NCBI RefSeq assembly: GCF_900101625.1
Contig: NZ_FMYZ01000002.1
Location: 186,001-250,000, forward strand
Direction: 5' to 3'
From: Cupriavidus sp. YR651
Lineage (GTDB): Bacteria; Pseudomonadota; Gammaproteobacteria; Burkholderiales; Burkholderiaceae
DNA length: 64,000 nt
The notes below the pieces were generated by a model. It saw only the letters and a list, made by a program, of their open reading frames with translations, was not told the DNA's origin and made no database searches. Positions 8,710 to 49,693 of the stretch are shown here, in pieces; the stretch's first letter is position 1, and each line of letters opens with the position of its first letter. The translations under genes and the position numbers were made by a program.

Positions 8710-10311
8710 TTAGCGGTTCTTGCCGGTCGGCGTGCCGAGCGGATCGCCGATCGGGGCGCTTGCCGGCGGCTGGCTGGCCGGCTTGGGCGCCGCGGCCGGT
8801 TTGGCGGCCGGCTTGGCCGGGGCCTTGTCCGATACCTTTTCCTTGTCCGGCTTGCCCGCGGACTGGGCCGCCTCCAGGCGCGACTTCGAGCGCTGGACCG
8901 GCTTGCCGTTCAGTTGCGCGATCGCCTGCTGGAGCATGAAGTCATCCGCGGAGCCAAACTCCACCGGCTTCTTGCGGCGATCCTTCTCGCGCTCTTCCGG
9001 CGTCTTCTTCGCGTTCTCTTCTTCCAGGCGGCGCAATTCTTCCACGCGGCGCTGCTCGCGCTCGTTCATTTCCGGCTCTTCCGACTCCTGCTTGTTGTGC
9101 AGGTGGCGCTCGGTGTCGATCTCGCGCGTGATCAGCGCGTCGTCCGGATCGCCCTCGGGAGTCTGGTCGACCGGAATGTCCGGACGGATGCCCTTGGCCT
9201 GGATCGACTTGCCCGTCGGCGTGTAGTAGTACGCGATGGTCAGCTTGATGCCGGTGTCGTTGGTCAACGGGCGCACGGTCTGGACCGAGCCCTTGCCGAA
9301 CGTCGTCTTGCCCATGATCAGCGCGCGGTGGTGATCCTGCAGCGCGCCCGCCACGATTTCCGACGCCGATGCCGAGTAGGCGTTGGTCAGCACGACCATC
9401 GGAATCTTCTTGAACGTTGCCGGCAGGTCCTTGAGCGGATCGTCCTCGATCGACGACAAGCGGTAGTTGTTGAACGATGCCTTGTAGACGCGCTTGGCGT
9501 CCGGCACCTGGCCGTTGGTGGAAACCACCGTGGCATCGTCCGGCAGGAACGCCGCGGCCACGCCGACCGCGCCTTGCAGCACGCCGCCGCCGTTGTTGCG
9601 CAGGTCCAGGATGATGCCCTTCAGGCCGGGATTCTTGTCGGCCATGTCCTTCAGGCGGCGCCCCAGGTCGGACACGGTGCGCTCCTGGAAGCTCGTCAGG
9701 CGCACCCAGCCGATGGTGTTGTTGTCGAGCATCTTGGTCTTGACCGACTGCACGCGGATTTCCGCGCGGGTGATCGAGACCGGGAACGTGCGTTCCTCGC
9801 TCTTGCGGTAGATGGTCAGCGTGACCTTGGTGCCGGGCTCGCCGCGCATGCGCTTGACCGCCTGCTCCAGCGGCAGGCCGCGCACGGGTTTGTCGTCGAT
9901 GCGGGTGATCAGGTCGCCCGGCTGGATACCGGCGCGGAACGCGGGGGTATCCTCGATCGGGTTGATGACCTTGACCAGGCCTTCTTCCTGCGAGATCTCG
10001 ATGCCCAGGCCGGCAAAGCGGCCGCGCGTGCCTTCCTGCAGTTCCTTGAAGTCCTTCTCGTCCAGGTAGGCCGAGTGGGGGTCGAGGCTGGCGACCATGC
10101 CCTTGATGGCTTCGGTCAGCAGTTTCTTGTCGTCGACCGGCTCCACATATTCGCGCTTGATCTGCCCGAAGATGTCCGACATCAGCCGCAGCTGGTCGAG
10201 CGGCAGCGGCCCGGACGAATTCTGGGCCGTCGCCGAGATCTGCAGCGTGGCGAGCACGCCGGCAACGACGCCGACTGAGACGAGGCTAATGTTCTTGAGC
10301 GTCTTACGCAT
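8710..10311 (-). CDS. ctpA: Carboxy-terminal processing peptidase, S41 family
   Basis: Periplasmic serine protease that trims or degrades proteins from their C-termini. Start ATG at 10311 gives 533 aa beginning MRKTLKNIS, with one N-terminal membrane or signal segment (about residues 7-27). A PDZ domain around residues 85-165 contains GRFAGLGIEIS and GDLITRIDDKPV. The S41 catalytic core shows the nucleophile in NAYSASASEIV and the lysine in GKTTFGKGSVQT. The C-terminal 120 residues are a charged then Ala/Pro/Lys-rich tail typical of betaproteobacterial CtpA. gpmA lies upstream on the same strand. Confidence 0.93.
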   Translation of the reverse strand: MRKTLKNISLVSVGVVAGVLATLQISATAQNSSGPLPLDQLRLMSDIFGQIKREYVEPVDDKKLLTEAIKGMVASLDPHSAYLDEKDFKELQEGTRGRFAGLGIEISQEEGLVKVINPIEDTPAFRAGIQPGDLITRIDDKPVRGLPLEQAVKRMRGEPGTKVTLTIYRKSEERTFPVSITRAEIRVQSVKTKMLDNNTIGWVRLTSFQERTVSDLGRRLKDMADKNPGLKGIILDLRNNGGGVLQGAVGVAAAFLPDDATVVSTNGQVPDAKRVYKASFNNYRLSSIEDDPLKDLPATFKKIPMVVLTNAYSASASEIVAGALQDHHRALIMGKTTFGKGSVQTVRPLTNDTGIKLTIAYYYTPTGKSIQAKGIRPDIPVDQTPEGDPDDALITREIDTERHLHNKQESEEPEMNEREQRRVEELRRLEEENAKKTPEEREKDRRKKPVEFGSADDFMLQQAIAQLNGKPVQRSKSRLEAAQSAGKPDKEKVSDKAPAKPAAKPAAAPKPASQPPASAPIGDPLGTPTGKNR

Positions 10312-31240: not shown

Positions 31241-32044
31241 CTATGCGGCCTCCTGCAGCGCCGGATTGCGCTGCTTCCGGTACAGGAAGTCCAGCACGGC
31301 CGTGCGGCAAGCGTGGTAGGTCTTGTCGTCGGCCAGCGCCACGCGATCGCGCGGGCGCGGAATATCGACCTTCAGGATCTCGCCGATCGTCGCCGCGGGG
31401 CCGTTGGTCATCATGACGATACGATCGGCCAGCAGCACGGCCTCGTCCACGTCGTGCGTGACCATGACCACCGTGCTCCTGGTGCGGGCGACGATCTTGA
31501 TCAGCTCGTCCTGCAGGTGGGCGCGCGTCAGCGCATCCAGCGCGCCGAACGGTTCGTCCATCAGCAGGACCTTGGGCTGCATCGCCAGCGCACGGGCAAT
31601 GCCTACCCGCTGCTTCATCCCGCCCGAGATCTCGTGCGGATATTTGGCCTCCGCATGCGTCAGGCCAACCAGCGCGAGCGTGTCGTGGGTGCGCGCCTTC
31701 AGCTGCGCCTTGCTTTCGGTGGCGCCGAACACGCGCTCCACGCCCAGGTGCACGTTCTCGAAGCAAGTCATCCACGGCAGCAGCGAATGGTTCTGGAATA
31801 CCACCGCACGCTCCGGCCCCGGGCCAGCGATCTCGCGGCCCGCGCAGATCAGTGCGCCGGAGGTCGGGCTGGTCAGTCCGGCAATCAGGTTCAGCAGCGT
31901 GGACTTGCCGCAGCCGGAGTGCCCGATCAGCGTGATGAATTCCCCCTCGGCGATGGAGAGGTGGATCTCGCGCAGGGCCACGAACGGCCCCTTGCGTGTC
32001 TTGAACGTCTGCCCGACGTTCTCGATGCTGACAAACTTTTCCAT
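31241..32044 (-). CDS. nrtD: Nitrate-type ABC transporter ATP-binding protein
   Basis: ATPase subunit (267 aa). Walker A is GHSGCGKST (about residues 41-49), the Q-loop is VFQNHSLLPWM, the signature is SGGMKQRVGIARAL (about 142-155) and Walker B is VLLMDEPFGALDALT (about 162-176). The subfamily (NrtD/SsuB/TauB type) imports nitrate, sulfonates or cyanate; nitrate is inferred from the adjacent NrtA-type binding protein and NasT. It is 15 bp downstream of the permease gene. Confidence 0.9.
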   Translation of the reverse strand: MEKFVSIENVGQTFKTRKGPFVALREIHLSIAEGEFITLIGHSGCGKSTLLNLIAGLTSPTSGALICAGREIAGPGPERAVVFQNHSLLPWMTCFENVHLGVERVFGATESKAQLKARTHDTLALVGLTHAEAKYPHEISGGMKQRVGIARALAMQPKVLLMDEPFGALDALTRAHLQDELIKIVARTRSTVVMVTHDVDEAVLLADRIVMMTNGPAATIGEILKVDIPRPRDRVALADDKTYHACRTAVLDFLYRKQRNPALQEAA

Positions 32045-32059
32045 GACGTCCGTCCCCGA

Positions 32060-32971
32060 TCAGGTGTTGCCGTAGCTGAAGCGGCGGGCCAGCGCCAGCA
32101 GCAGGTGCTCCAGCACCAGGCCGACCACGCCGATGATGAAGATCGCGATCACGATGTGCTCGACCTTCAGGTTGTTCCATTCATCCCAGAGCCAGAAGCC
32201 GATGCCGGTGCCGCCCGTCAGCATCTCCGCGGCGACGATCACGAGCCATGCCGTACCGATCGACAACCGCACGCCGGTAAGCATGTAGGGCAGCACGGCC
32301 GGGAACAGCACGCGGCGGAATACCTTCCATTCGGACAGATCCAGCACACGCGCCACGTTCAGGTAGTCCTGCGGCACGCGCGTCACGCCCACGGCGGTGT
32401 TGATGATCATCGGCCAGATCGAGCAGATGAAGATCGCCCAGATGGCGGCAGGGTTGGCCGCCTTGAACAGCAGCAGGCCGATCGGCAGCCATGCCAGTGG
32501 CGACACCGGACGCAGCAGGCTGATCACGGGCGCGGCCATCGCGTTCAGGAACGCAAAACGCCCGAGCAGGAAGCCGGCCGGAATGCCGACCAGCGCGGCC
32601 AGGCCAAAGCCCGCCGCCACGCGGGTCAGCGATGCCAGCACGTTCCAGCCGATGCCCTGGTCGTTCGGCCCGTTGCGGTAGAACGGATCGGAGAACAGCG
32701 GCACCGCCGCGTTCCACGTCGCGCCGGGCGTGGGGATGGCCGGGATCATGGTGGCGATGCCGTGCCACACGAGCAGGAACAACACAAAGCCAACCACCGG
32801 CGGTACGGCCTTGAGCACGACGCCGCCGAACGCGTCGCGTCGCGCGGCCTGGCGCTCCTGCGCGGCGATCTCCAGCTTGCGGCGGCGCGTCTGCTCCTTG
32901 ATATCGGGGTCGACGGATTCCGCGTTTATGGCGGTGGCGCCTTCCGGCGCGGCTTGGGCAATTGCGTTCAC
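32060..32971 (-). CDS. nrtB: Nitrate-type ABC transporter permease
   Basis: Inner-membrane permease (303 aa, about six helices). GTG 32971 is chosen because AGGAG lies just upstream; an ATG at 33100 would overlap the nrtA coding sequence. A charged N-terminal stretch of about 45 residues precedes the first helix (PVVGFVLFLLVWHGIATMI). The EAA loop that docks the ATPase appears as SEWKVFRRVLFPAVLPYMLTG near residue 215. Middle gene of the nrtA-nrtB-nrtD operon. Confidence 0.9.
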   Translation of the reverse strand: MNAIAQAAPEGATAINAESVDPDIKEQTRRRKLEIAAQERQAARRDAFGGVVLKAVPPVVGFVLFLLVWHGIATMIPAIPTPGATWNAAVPLFSDPFYRNGPNDQGIGWNVLASLTRVAAGFGLAALVGIPAGFLLGRFAFLNAMAAPVISLLRPVSPLAWLPIGLLLFKAANPAAIWAIFICSIWPMIINTAVGVTRVPQDYLNVARVLDLSEWKVFRRVLFPAVLPYMLTGVRLSIGTAWLVIVAAEMLTGGTGIGFWLWDEWNNLKVEHIVIAIFIIGVVGLVLEHLLLALARRFSYGNT

Positions 32972-33047
32972 GTCTGGCTCCTGAAGGGGCGGGCAGGGAA
33001 AGGTAGGCGGAGCAAGCCGGGCAGGCTGCGCCGCCAGCGGAGCAGCG

Positions 33048-34355
33048 TCAGGCCTTGATCTTGAAGCCGTCGGCGTAGGCCTTCGGGTCCTTGGTCGCAT
33101 CCCACGTCACGCCGTCGATCAGCCGGGCGGTGCGGAAGTCGCTCTTGGGCACCGCTACCTGCGCGGCTGCGGCCGCTTGCTTGAATACGTCGATCCGGTT
33201 CACCTGCCTGGCCACGGCGAGGTAGTCCGGGTGGTCCTTCAGCAGGCCCCAGCGCTTGTGCTGGGTCAGGAACCACATGCCGTCTGAGAGGAACGGGTAG
33301 TTCGCCGTGCCGTCCTGATAGAACTTCATGGAATCGGGGTCGTCCCAGGTCTTGCCCAGGCCGTTGCTGTAGCGGCCGAGCATGCGGTCCAGGATGATGT
33401 CCATGTCGGTATTGACGTAGGACTTGGCGGCGATGGTTTCCGCCGTCTTGCGACGGTTCGAAGCCGATGCGTCGATGTATTTCGACGCTTCCAGGATCGC
33501 GGCCACCATGGCACGCGCCGTGTTCGGATTCTTCTGAACGAAGTCGGCGGTGGTGCCGAGCGTCTTTTCCGGGTGATCCTTCCAGATGGCCTGCGTGGTT
33601 TCCACGGTGAAGCCAATCTTGTCGGCGATGGCGCGCGCGCCCCAGGGTTCGCCGACGCAGAAGCCGTCCATGTTGCCCACGCGCATGTTGGCCACCATCT
33701 GCGGCGGCGGCACCGTGATCGCCTTGGCGTCCTGCATCGGATTGATGCCGTTGGCCGCCAGCCAGTAGTAGAGCCACATCGCGTGCGTGCCGGTGGGGAA
33801 GGTTTGCGCGAACGTGTAGTCGCGCTTCTCCTTGGCCATCAGCGCGCGCAGGCTGGCGCCGTCGCGGACGCCCTTCTCGGACAGCTTGGACGACAGCGTG
33901 ATGGCCTGGCCATTGTGGTTCAGGTTCATCAGCACGGCCATGTCCTTCTTGGGGCCGCCGATGCCCAGCTGCACGCCGTAGATGAGGCCATACAGCACGT
34001 GGGCGGCGTCCAGTTCGCCATTGACCAGCTTGTCGCGCACGGCCGCCCAGGATGCTTCCTTGCTCGGCGTGATCTTGATGCCGTACTTCTTGTCCAGGCC
34101 CAGCGTCGATGCCATGACGACGGACGCGCAATCGGTCAGCGGGATGAAGCCGATCTTCACCTCGGACTTCTCCGGCGCGTCGGAGCCCGCCGCCCAGGCA
34201 CCGCTGCGCACCAGCGGGTCCACCAGCGTCATCACGCTGGCACCGGCGATGGTGGCCAACGCGCGGCGACGGCCGTGGCTCGCGGGGGCCGTTTCGGCGG
34301 CGGCGGATTCCACGGCGGCGCGCGGGGTCTTGGCAATCTTCAGGCGAGAGGGCAT
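33048..34355 (-). CDS. nrtA: Nitrate-type ABC transporter substrate-binding protein
   Basis: Periplasmic binding protein of the NrtA/NasF/CynA family (435 aa). A twin-arginine-type signal (HGRRRALATIAGASVMTL) lies near residues 27-45. Family landmarks are VKIGFIPLTDCASVVMA (about 66-82), DAAHVLYGLIYG (about 115) and MDGFCVGEPWGARA (about 228-241). Substrate nitrate (or nitrite/cyanate) is inferred from the family and from nasT immediately upstream. CTGGAG is the Shine-Dalgarno. Expression is predicted to need sigma-54 and antitermination in the leader (34370-34552). Confidence 0.92.
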   Translation of the reverse strand: MPSRLKIAKTPRAAVESAAAETAPASHGRRRALATIAGASVMTLVDPLVRSGAWAAGSDAPEKSEVKIGFIPLTDCASVVMASTLGLDKKYGIKITPSKEASWAAVRDKLVNGELDAAHVLYGLIYGVQLGIGGPKKDMAVLMNLNHNGQAITLSSKLSEKGVRDGASLRALMAKEKRDYTFAQTFPTGTHAMWLYYWLAANGINPMQDAKAITVPPPQMVANMRVGNMDGFCVGEPWGARAIADKIGFTVETTQAIWKDHPEKTLGTTADFVQKNPNTARAMVAAILEASKYIDASASNRRKTAETIAAKSYVNTDMDIILDRMLGRYSNGLGKTWDDPDSMKFYQDGTANYPFLSDGMWFLTQHKRWGLLKDHPDYLAVARQVNRIDVFKQAAAAAQVAVPKSDFRTARLIDGVTWDATKDPKAYADGFKIKA

Positions 34356-34369
34356 TGCGATGGCTCCAG

Positions 34370-34434
34370 AAAGAAAAAGGCGTCCCGATCCGCATCCCGC
34401 CTTCGCCAGAAATCAGGGTGCAGTTCAGGACGCC
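34370..34434 (-). terminator. Leader attenuator in front of nrtA
   Basis: On the minus strand GGCGTCC (34434-34428) pairs with GGACGCC (34385-34379), enclosing a partial inner stem and followed directly by TTTTTCTTT. The nrtA Shine-Dalgarno starts one base later. Position and form fit a transcription terminator that must be overcome to express nrtA. Confidence 0.7.
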
Positions 34435-34448
34435 GTTGTCCGATGCCG

Positions 34449-34468
34449 CGCGGTCGTCGTTGACCGCG
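34449..34468 (-). promoter_or_regulatory. ANTAR target hairpin P2 in nrtA leader
   Basis: Perfect 7-bp stem CGCGGTC/GACCGCG closing the hexaloop AACGAC, which has A at loop position 1 and G at position 4, the conserved ANTAR signature. Confidence 0.8.
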
Positions 34469-34506
34469 TGCATATGTTGTTCGGTGATGCTTCAGACTTC
34501 GTACCG

Positions 34507-34526
34507 CGCAACCGTCGTTGGTCGCG
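34507..34526 (-). promoter_or_regulatory. ANTAR target hairpin P1 in nrtA leader
   Basis: 7-bp stem CGCGACC/GGTTGCG (one G-T pair) closing the same AACGAC hexaloop as P2. It begins at the predicted sigma-54 start site (about 34527) and lies 38 bases before P2. Confidence 0.78.
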
Positions 34527-34536
34527 ACATCGATAA

Positions 34537-34552
34537 CGCAAGCGACGTGCCA
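34537..34552 (-). promoter_or_regulatory. Sigma-54 promoter of nrtA
   Basis: Minus-strand TGGCACGTCGCTTGCG matches the -24/-12 consensus TGGCAC-N5-TTGC exactly, with GG and GC ten bases apart. Predicted transcription start is near 34527, giving a leader of about 170 bases. rpoN is at 59008-60492 in this window. Confidence 0.88.
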
Positions 34553-34719: not shown

Positions 34720-34734
34720 GCACCAGCCGCGTGC
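34720..34734. promoter_or_regulatory. NtrC-like enhancer site
   Basis: GCAC-N7-GTGC, the core spacing of NtrC sites, about 200 bp upstream of the predicted nrtA start. The outer bases match only partly. The rest of the 34356-34749 gap is covered by the leader and promoter elements. Confidence 0.5.
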
Positions 34735-34749: not shown

Positions 34750-35385
34750 TCAGGTCATCACATCGATGACGCGCTGGGCAGCTTCCACCAGCTTGATGCC
34801 GCGCTCCATCGCCATGTTGCGCAGGCGCTTGAAGGCCTCTTCCTCGTTGATGCCGCGCGCCTCCATCAGCAGCCCCTTGGCGCGCTCGACCGTCTTGCGC
34901 TCGGCCAGCTTGAGCCTGGTGGCGTCCAGCTCCGCGCGCAGTTGCTGGTCGAGTTCGAAACGGGCATAGGCAACGTTCAGCACCGTCTTCACGCGCTCGG
35001 CGCGCAGGCCGTCGACGATATAGGCGGTGATGCCGGCGGACAGCGCCCCCTTGATGCGCTGGGCGTCGTCGTTATCCGTGAACAGCACGATCGGGCGCGG
35101 CGCGTGCTGCGTGGAAACGCAGACGTGCTCGATGGTGTCGCGGGCGGCCGATTCGGAGGCAATGATGACGAGGTCCGGCTGGCTGGCGGCGATCACGTCG
35201 GGCAGGCGCAGGTCGGCATCGACGGTCTCCACCTCCGGGAAGCCGGCCTGCGCCAGTCCGGCGCGGATGGTCTCCACGTTGAGCGGATCGGCGTCATGCG
35301 GATCCCGCACCAGCAAGATGCGGAGCTGGCGGGGTGGAGCGGCCGGTGGTGCATTGGCGGATGGGGGCGGGTGGCGGCGGGTCAT
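34750..35385 (-). CDS. nasT: ANTAR-domain antitermination regulator NasT
   Basis: RNA-binding regulator of nitrate assimilation. 211 aa from ATG 35385. The N-terminal receiver-like domain (about 28-140) includes [14 protein letters not shown], but the usual phospho-acceptor position at the end of strand 3 reads LVIIASESA with no aspartate, so control by phosphorylation is unlikely. The C-terminal ANTAR domain (about 150-211) has [28 protein letters not shown]. In studied systems NasT is held by a nitrate sensor, NasS; no separate nasS gene is in the window. Its likely target is the nrtA leader just downstream. Confidence 0.9.
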
Positions 35386-35575
35386 GGCGGTCGCTTGGTT
35401 GCGGTGCAATATGCAAGATTCGCGCCGGGACTACCTGTACTGTATGCCGCGGTACGCAAGGTGTATGCTTTTGCCCTGCTGCGCCGGGCGCGGCGCTCCC
35501 GTGGCACACCTGCCGCGGGAGGTGCCGGATGCGTCCGCCCAGCGTTCCATCAGAAAAAAGAGTCTGGAGAGTTGG

Positions 35576-49420: not shown

Positions 49421-49693
49421 TGGGAAAGAGTCCGGGCGCATGGCCTGAAGGGACGAACGGAAGTCCGGCATGAAATCAATGCTCCGGCGCACGGGGGCGT
49501 AGGAATGGATGAGAGGCATTGTAGCCTGCCGCTACAATGCCCTGCTTGCCCCGAAGGGCCGAAACGTATGAGAGCCCGCACAGCGCGTTGCCGCAAGGCA
49601 TGGCGGCGTGCGGATTCCTGCGTGATTGGAGCGCCAAAGCGGGCAAGTGGTTCTTGAAAGCGGGCCGGATGCCGGCCGGGAGACACGGGCGCG

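Follow-up and report, generated by a model that had tools for sequence, protein, structure and literature searches.

The leader of the nitrate transporter gene nrtA in Cupriavidus sp. YR651 is, as judged from its sequence, modelled folding and conservation, a real ANTAR-type antitermination leader. Leaders of this kind are already known; the new points are its layout with three hexaloops, a bridged sister leader in the same genome and the absence of a detectable NasS. The nrtA leader was located on the minus strand of the window, which is the whole stretch of 64,000 nucleotides that was analysed (Table 1). An earlier note on this DNA had proposed a leader of the ANTAR/NasT type with two hexaloop hairpins. 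The type was well supported by both sequence and conservation, while the description with two hexaloops had missed a third hairpin, P2.

Table 1. Features of the nrtA leader, its neighbouring genes and the sister leader (positions in the window unless a locus is named).
Feature	Position	Strand	Basis and remarks
NtrC-like palindrome GCAC-N7-GTGC	34720-34734	minus	putative site, ~180 bp upstream of the promoter
Sigma-54 promoter TGGCACGTCGCTTGCG	34537-34552	minus	sequence match to the -24/-12 element TGGCAC-N5-TTGC
P0 hexaloop hairpin cgcgaccAACGACggttgcg	34507-34526	minus	arms cgcgacc and ggttgcg, loop AACGAC; at the predicted transcript start; in the minimum-energy fold
P1 hexaloop hairpin cgcggtcAACGACgaccgcg	34449-34468	minus	arms cgcggtc and gaccgcg, loop AACGAC; in the minimum-energy fold
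P2 hexaloop hairpin ggacAACGGCgtcc	34428-34441	minus	found by hexaloop scan; overlaps the terminator 5' arm
Intrinsic terminator stem, base GGCGUCCUGA / UCGGGACGCC	34379-34434	minus	predicted fold; 10-bp base
Terminator U tract TTTTTCTTT	34370-34378	minus	sequence
nrtA ribosome-binding site TGGAG	34364-34368	minus	sequence; ATG at 34355
nrtA, nitrate-binding protein	33048-34355	minus	NMT1_2 3.6e-106; 2g29 NrtA 3.7e-84; behind the leader
nrtB permease	32060-33100	minus	ntrB profile, above cut-off
nrtC/D-type ATPase	31241-32044	minus	ntrCD profile, above cut-off
nasT	34750-35409	minus	ANTAR 3.1e-19; receiver-like domain, Response_reg 20.8 bits, below the Pfam cut-off of 30.2
narK-nirB-nasA leader, same genome	L074, P2 at ~8774-8787	minus	P0, plain hairpin and P2

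Hexaloop hairpins and terminator of the nrtA leader

The two hairpins with AACGAC loops claimed in the earlier note, P0 and P1, were both present in the predicted minimum-energy fold of the leader, and the P1 stem was lengthened by AUGC/GCAU to 34473-34443. The fold, which the same note had called for, had a free energy of -72 kcal/mol (z = -4.2), and none of 200 shuffled sequences was equally stable. A scan for hexaloop hairpins, defined by a six-base loop whose first base is A and whose fourth is G (A1/G4), C:G closure and a stem of at least 4 bp, revealed the third hairpin P2, with a linker of 7 nt to P1; the gap between P0 and P1 was 38 nt. Among 2000 dinucleotide shuffles of the leader, none contained three such hairpins and 2 contained at least two. 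Single hexaloop hairpins were frequent by chance, with 38 on the plus strand and 25 on the minus strand of the window, and one further pair 3-16 nt apart was found in the window, on the plus strand near 49487.

In the published studies, the ANTAR target consists of two closely spaced A1/G4 hexaloops, the second of which overlaps a terminator (PMC3369931, PMC8934654, PMC7496416). The linkers of eut leaders measure 5-12 nt, a linker of 14 nt drastically lowered induction (PMC3369931), and lengthening of the linker by 20 nt abolished antitermination (PMC8934654). SELEX with NasR yielded loops that are each closed by a C:G pair (PMC7496416). P1 and P2 are neighbouring hairpins with A1/G4 hexaloops, and their linker falls within the eut range. 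This pair thus fits the published ANTAR target, with P0 as an apparent addition. P0 and P1, which had been put forward as the target, are too far apart for that range and were rejected as the canonical pair; it is the overlooked P2 that overlaps the terminator. A search of the window with Rfam at gathering scores gave no match at the leader and found only a tRNA.

The terminator of the earlier note was recovered as a stem with a U tract ahead of the nrtA ribosome-binding site. The seven bases GGCGUCC (34434-34428) are the last seven of P2 and also the first seven of the terminator 5' arm; because these bases are common to both, P2 and the intrinsic terminator are mutually exclusive in the predicted structures, an arrangement that matches known ANTAR targets. 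In the folds predicted for growing transcripts, P2 was present once the RNA had reached 34428 and persisted up to the emergence of the terminator 3' arm at ~34380. P2 alone comprises 4 bp with -4.0 kcal/mol, against -35.1 kcal/mol for the terminator alone. With P2 so much weaker than the terminator, the predicted switch must act during transcription.

Conservation of the leader in the genus

Conservation of the hexaloops and stems in relatives, on which the earlier note had made its proposal depend, favoured the leader. The aligned set comprised 32 nrtA leaders of the genus, namely the 30 loci fetched with NasT together with L050 and L058; the rule for recognising leaders yielded none at 9 of 60 loci. 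All 30 loci fetched with NasT contained the sigma-54 site, P0 and P2, and P1 was found at 25 of the 30 under the strict 4-bp rule. The A1/G4 loop bases were kept in 32/32 aligned leaders for P0, 31/32 for P1 and 32/32 for P2, and the C:G closure of each of the three loops was present in all 32. The stem cells were paired in 96.3% (P0), 87.4% (P1) and 100% (P2) of cases, the pairing of P1 being imperfect with one pair open in 19 of the 32 leaders. Double-sided changes were observed in 4 of 8 pairs of P1 and 1 of 5 pairs of P0; the P2 stem was invariant in all 32 leaders and hence showed no covariation. The loop-to-loop spacing was tight between P1 and P2 (18-21 nt) and loose between P0 and P1 (27-69 nt).

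When the leader alignment was compared with 500 shuffles, its pairing, its doubly changed cells and its covariation score each lay above all of them, and two measures did not go beyond the shuffles, namely the pairs with double changes (reached in 56/500) and the further pair types (185/500). The seven outer pairs of the terminator were standard in 98.2% of cells over the 32 leaders; shuffles equalled its five measures between 7 and 142 times of 500, with two of the measures at 142/500.

Promoter and predicted transcript start

The perfect sigma-54 site that had been claimed upstream of the leader was present, and TGGCACGTCGCTTGC(G) at 34552-34537 was the sole match to TGGCA[CT]N5TTGC in the window when both strands were scanned. 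A site of the form TGG[CT][AC]..T[TG]GC was found at 30/30 nasT-nrtA loci of the genus. From the position of the promoter, the transcript is predicted to start at ~34526. The palindrome further upstream is a putative NtrC-like site. Its loose form (GCAC-N7-11-GTGC at most 220 bp upstream) was found with 25 of 48 nrtA-type leaders and with all 30 narK leaders of the genus, these being raw counts. Because of the palindrome upstream of the promoter, a double gate for transporter synthesis, by NtrC/sigma-54 and by NasT antitermination, is plausible. An Ntr-type promoter precedes nasF of Klebsiella oxytoca. In Ralstonia solanacearum, rpoN1 mutants showed no growth on nitrate (PMC4371752).

NasT and its exchange in relatives

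The next gene upstream of the leader was nasT, as the earlier note had stated, and no other gene of the genome gave an ANTAR match. Its product carries a receiver-like and an ANTAR domain, as does NasT of NasS-NasT systems, the receiver lying below the Pfam cut-off. The receiver Asp was replaced, with VIIAS where other proteins have VIID, and it was also replaced in NasT of L035, L053 and L059. In the NasT alignment (17 loci named, 15 long enough), the Asp was kept in all 10 rows whose loci have a NasS-type gene close by, and also in Duganella L139, which has NrtA-NrtB in place of the NasS-type gene; loss of the Asp therefore does not simply track loss of NasS.

Among 60 genomes of the genus, 54 encoded a near-full-length NasT, one a NasT apparently in two pieces (G028 contig 1, 583528-584183) and four only distant ANTAR matches, and one incomplete genome gave no match. 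All four relatives without a close NasT (L041, L051, L230, L231) carried a NIT-ANTAR protein of the NasR type, as assigned by Pfam. In L041, the neighbour of the NIT-ANTAR gene was a formate/nitrite transporter gene by Pfam.

Proposed mechanism

The leader is very probably a transcription attenuator of nrtABC in which P1 and P2 form the pair bound by NasT and P0 is an extra NasT site. Sigma-54 polymerase, presumably activated by NtrC under nitrogen shortage, would start at ~34526 and produce P0 first. The emerging RNA would then fold P1 and next P2, which would occupy bases of the terminator 5' arm. Without help, the terminator 3' arm (~34380) would displace P2, and transcription would end at the U tract before nrtA. 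Active NasT would grip P1 and P2 as the recruitment and antitermination pair and keep P2 folded, so that the polymerase could pass. P0 would be an additional 5' NasT site, most likely raising the local concentration of NasT, since its distance from P1 is free to vary.

The sister leader and the possible role of P0

The P2 pattern GGACAANGRCGTCC had two matches in the genome, one in the nrtA leader and the other in a leader before narK-nirB-nasA. The reversed GGACAANGRCGTCC control pattern had four matches; the count alone therefore proves nothing, and it is the context of the matches that identifies them. The narK leader has in common with the nrtA leader the sigma-54 site, a P0 near the start, an identical P2 and a terminator, and differs in its middle hairpin, which is non-hexaloop, and in the gap of 46 nt between P0 and P2, within which this helix lies. 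NasT presumably also controls narK-nirB-nasA through the leader composed of P0, the plain hairpin and P2.

The sigma-54 site, the P0-type loop, the middle hairpin and P2 were present in all 30 narK leaders read in the genus. The P0-type loop had the form CAA[CT]G..G in 30/30, on an uninterrupted stem of merely 3-5 bp, and began at +3 to +6, compared with the predicted +1 in the nrtA leaders. The middle hairpin was without an A1/G4 loop closed by C/U:G in 27 of the 30, and the other three each had one conflicting 3-bp candidate. An alignment of 29 of these leaders, from which L103 was dropped as its terminator end was not recognised, showed that the middle hairpin covaries, with double changes in 6 of 10 pairs. 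The score of the whole narK structure was above all 500 shuffles, and the number of further pair types was reached by 23/500. In three relatives with a NIT-ANTAR protein, the narK leaders read (L076, L088 and L090) had retained the same kind of structure.

These observations bear on the possibility that NasT works on P0 and P2 as its pair and that P1 is a spacer hairpin which draws these two close to each other, its hexaloop being incidental in nrtA leaders. Such a pair is conceivable, though we do not consider it probable. It would suit the narK leaders, all of which have a P0-type loop and P2 around a hairpin that covaries yet mostly has no A1/G4 loop, and also the nrtA leaders of two NIT-ANTAR relatives without a close NasT, in which P0 and P2 were retained but the intervening stretch had no A1/G4 hexaloop, although these two may represent one event. 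The loop bases of P1 are nevertheless kept in all but one of the 32 nrtA leaders, and the tight spacing is that between P1 and P2. The effects of longer eut linkers (PMC8934654, PMC3369931) argue against a pair with a gap of 46 nt, unless this gap is reduced by the helix within it. Moreover, the leaders of genus g24 (Ralstonia-like, the name being inferred) have just a single upstream hairpin, which lies 2-3 nt from P2.

It is unlikely that P0 serves only to stabilise the transcript at its 5' end, has no role in NasT binding and carries a hexaloop by coincidence. Hairpins at the 5' end can protect RNA, and P0 lies at or within a few bases of the predicted start in both kinds of leader, but the A1, G4 and C:G closure of its loop are found in every aligned nrtA leader, and the corresponding loop was present in all 30 narK leaders, although on uninterrupted stems of only 3-5 bp. 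P0 as an additional NasT site beside the P1-P2 pair is the reading we prefer.

A pattern scan of named genomes found the layout of sigma-54 site, P0, gap and P2 in Paraburkholderia, Caballeronia, Massilia, Xanthomonas, Rhizobium and others, among the matches listed, and the layout recurs in further beta/gamma-proteobacteria. The scan yielded at least 118 stretches, of which 80 were analysed for leader structure; the NrtA/NasS comparison described below used all fetched loci. The 80 analysed loci contained 87 layout matches; in 83 of them the P0 stem had 3 bp or more, and 81 of these 83 started at -1 to +6. By best match, the first gene behind the layout was narK in 32, of the nirB type in 24, cobA in 8, nrtA in 8, nasA in 1 and unassigned in the remaining 14. 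As the loop bases of P0 and P2 and limits on their spacing were built into the scan, it shows the breadth of the layout and not its independent conservation. At several loci, for example L054, L116 and L118, a cobA/cysG-type gene adjoins nasT-nasS.

NrtA, the search for NasS and the sensing of nitrate

The NrtA of the window was 87-91% identical to NrtA of the named Cupriavidus loci. Its start is putatively of the twin-arginine type, as judged by its motif. An internal start of nrtA at Met42, which would give a form without the signal, was rejected, as L214 has ATC and L222 has GTC at this codon. A separate cytoplasmic NasS was not found in the genome, in which NrtA was the sole close NrtA/NasS homologue. 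The genome also gave nine weaker matches to NMT1_2, none of them above 90 bits; seven of the nine were compared with NasS and had at most 27% identity beyond short stretches, and a second NasS was rejected as far as this search extended, these seven being only distantly NasS-like. A second NrtA/NasS homologue with 37-38% identity was present in 4 of 60 genomes of the genus. The two of these four that were read look CynA-like and pair in the tree, and one of them adjoins a cyanase gene.

A tree was built from 55 NrtA/NasS proteins, 8 of 63 having been dropped as duplicates or as frames started too far upstream, and was rooted by midpoint only. In 34 of the 55, nasT is closely followed by the gene for an NrtA/NasS-type protein without an evident signal start, which is the NasS arrangement. 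The window NrtA grouped with the NasS proteins of beta/gamma type, apart from alphaproteobacterial NrtA (support 100/99). In AU tests, from which one long row was omitted, a single NrtA clade was weakly rejected (p 0.025), and a single beta/gamma NasS clade was not rejected (p 0.43). The NasS-type proteins of Massilia and Pseudoduganella (L159, L162, L219, L195 and L113) begin near the expected start of mature NrtA, as if one form had come from the other when the signal was gained or lost.

Since the searches revealed no separate NasS, it cannot be assumed that nitrate acts through NasT, and the question is raised of what signals nitrate to NasT. One candidate answer is that NrtA has replaced NasS as the sensor of NasT in the genus, the folded protein holding NasT before export when nitrate is absent. 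This is suggested by the grouping of NrtA with beta/gamma NasS, by its Tat-type start and by its being the only close candidate in the genome, and Tat proteins fold before export; we nonetheless regard it as rather doubtful. If it were true, read-through of the three-hexaloop leader would be governed by the binding protein of the transporter itself. Quite unlikely, in turn, is a NasT blind to nitrate, with read-through whenever NasT is present and nrtABC regulated by NtrC/sigma-54 only. The missing NasS and the lost receiver Asp of NasT would agree with it, but a terminator and a P2 conserved in 32/32 leaders would be pointless without regulation, and the relatives without a close NasT have an ANTAR protein with a nitrate-sensing NIT domain.

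Finally, an ordinary terminator beside chance hairpins, of which the two strands of the window hold 63, can safely be dismissed, given that no shuffle contained three in one leader and that the three loops, when looked at in relatives, proved to be conserved, with covariation in the stems.

Comparison with known systems

One strain thus contains a leader with three hexaloops and a sister leader whose two hexaloops are bridged by a plain covarying hairpin, with one ANTAR protein for both. Because two layouts are combined with a single ANTAR protein, the use of successive hexaloops by an ANTAR dimer can be tested within one strain. Neither a three-hexaloop ANTAR leader nor a Cupriavidus NasT leader was found in the open-access literature searched.

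The eutP leader and EutV of Enterococcus faecalis have in common with the nrtA leader a dual hexaloop of P1 and P2, a P2 exclusive with the terminator and a short linker; EutV is activated by phosphorylation and uses two hexaloops, compared with three here (PMC3369931, PMC8934654). In Paracoccus denitrificans, NasT binds the leader RNA of the nitrate operon (nasA), as is predicted here, and a cytoplasmic NasS retains NasT as long as neither nitrate nor nitrite is bound (PMC3795266). In contrast to that organism, the sole close member of the NasS/NrtA group here is NrtA with its apparent twin-arginine-type start. The nasF leader and NasR of Klebsiella oxytoca also serve a nitrate assimilation operon and combine C:G-closed A1/G4 hairpins before a terminator with an ANTAR regulator (PMC7496416). 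That system relies on the one-component NIT-ANTAR protein NasR and on two hairpins, whereas the leader described here has three hexaloops and is associated with NasT, no NasS having been found in the genome.
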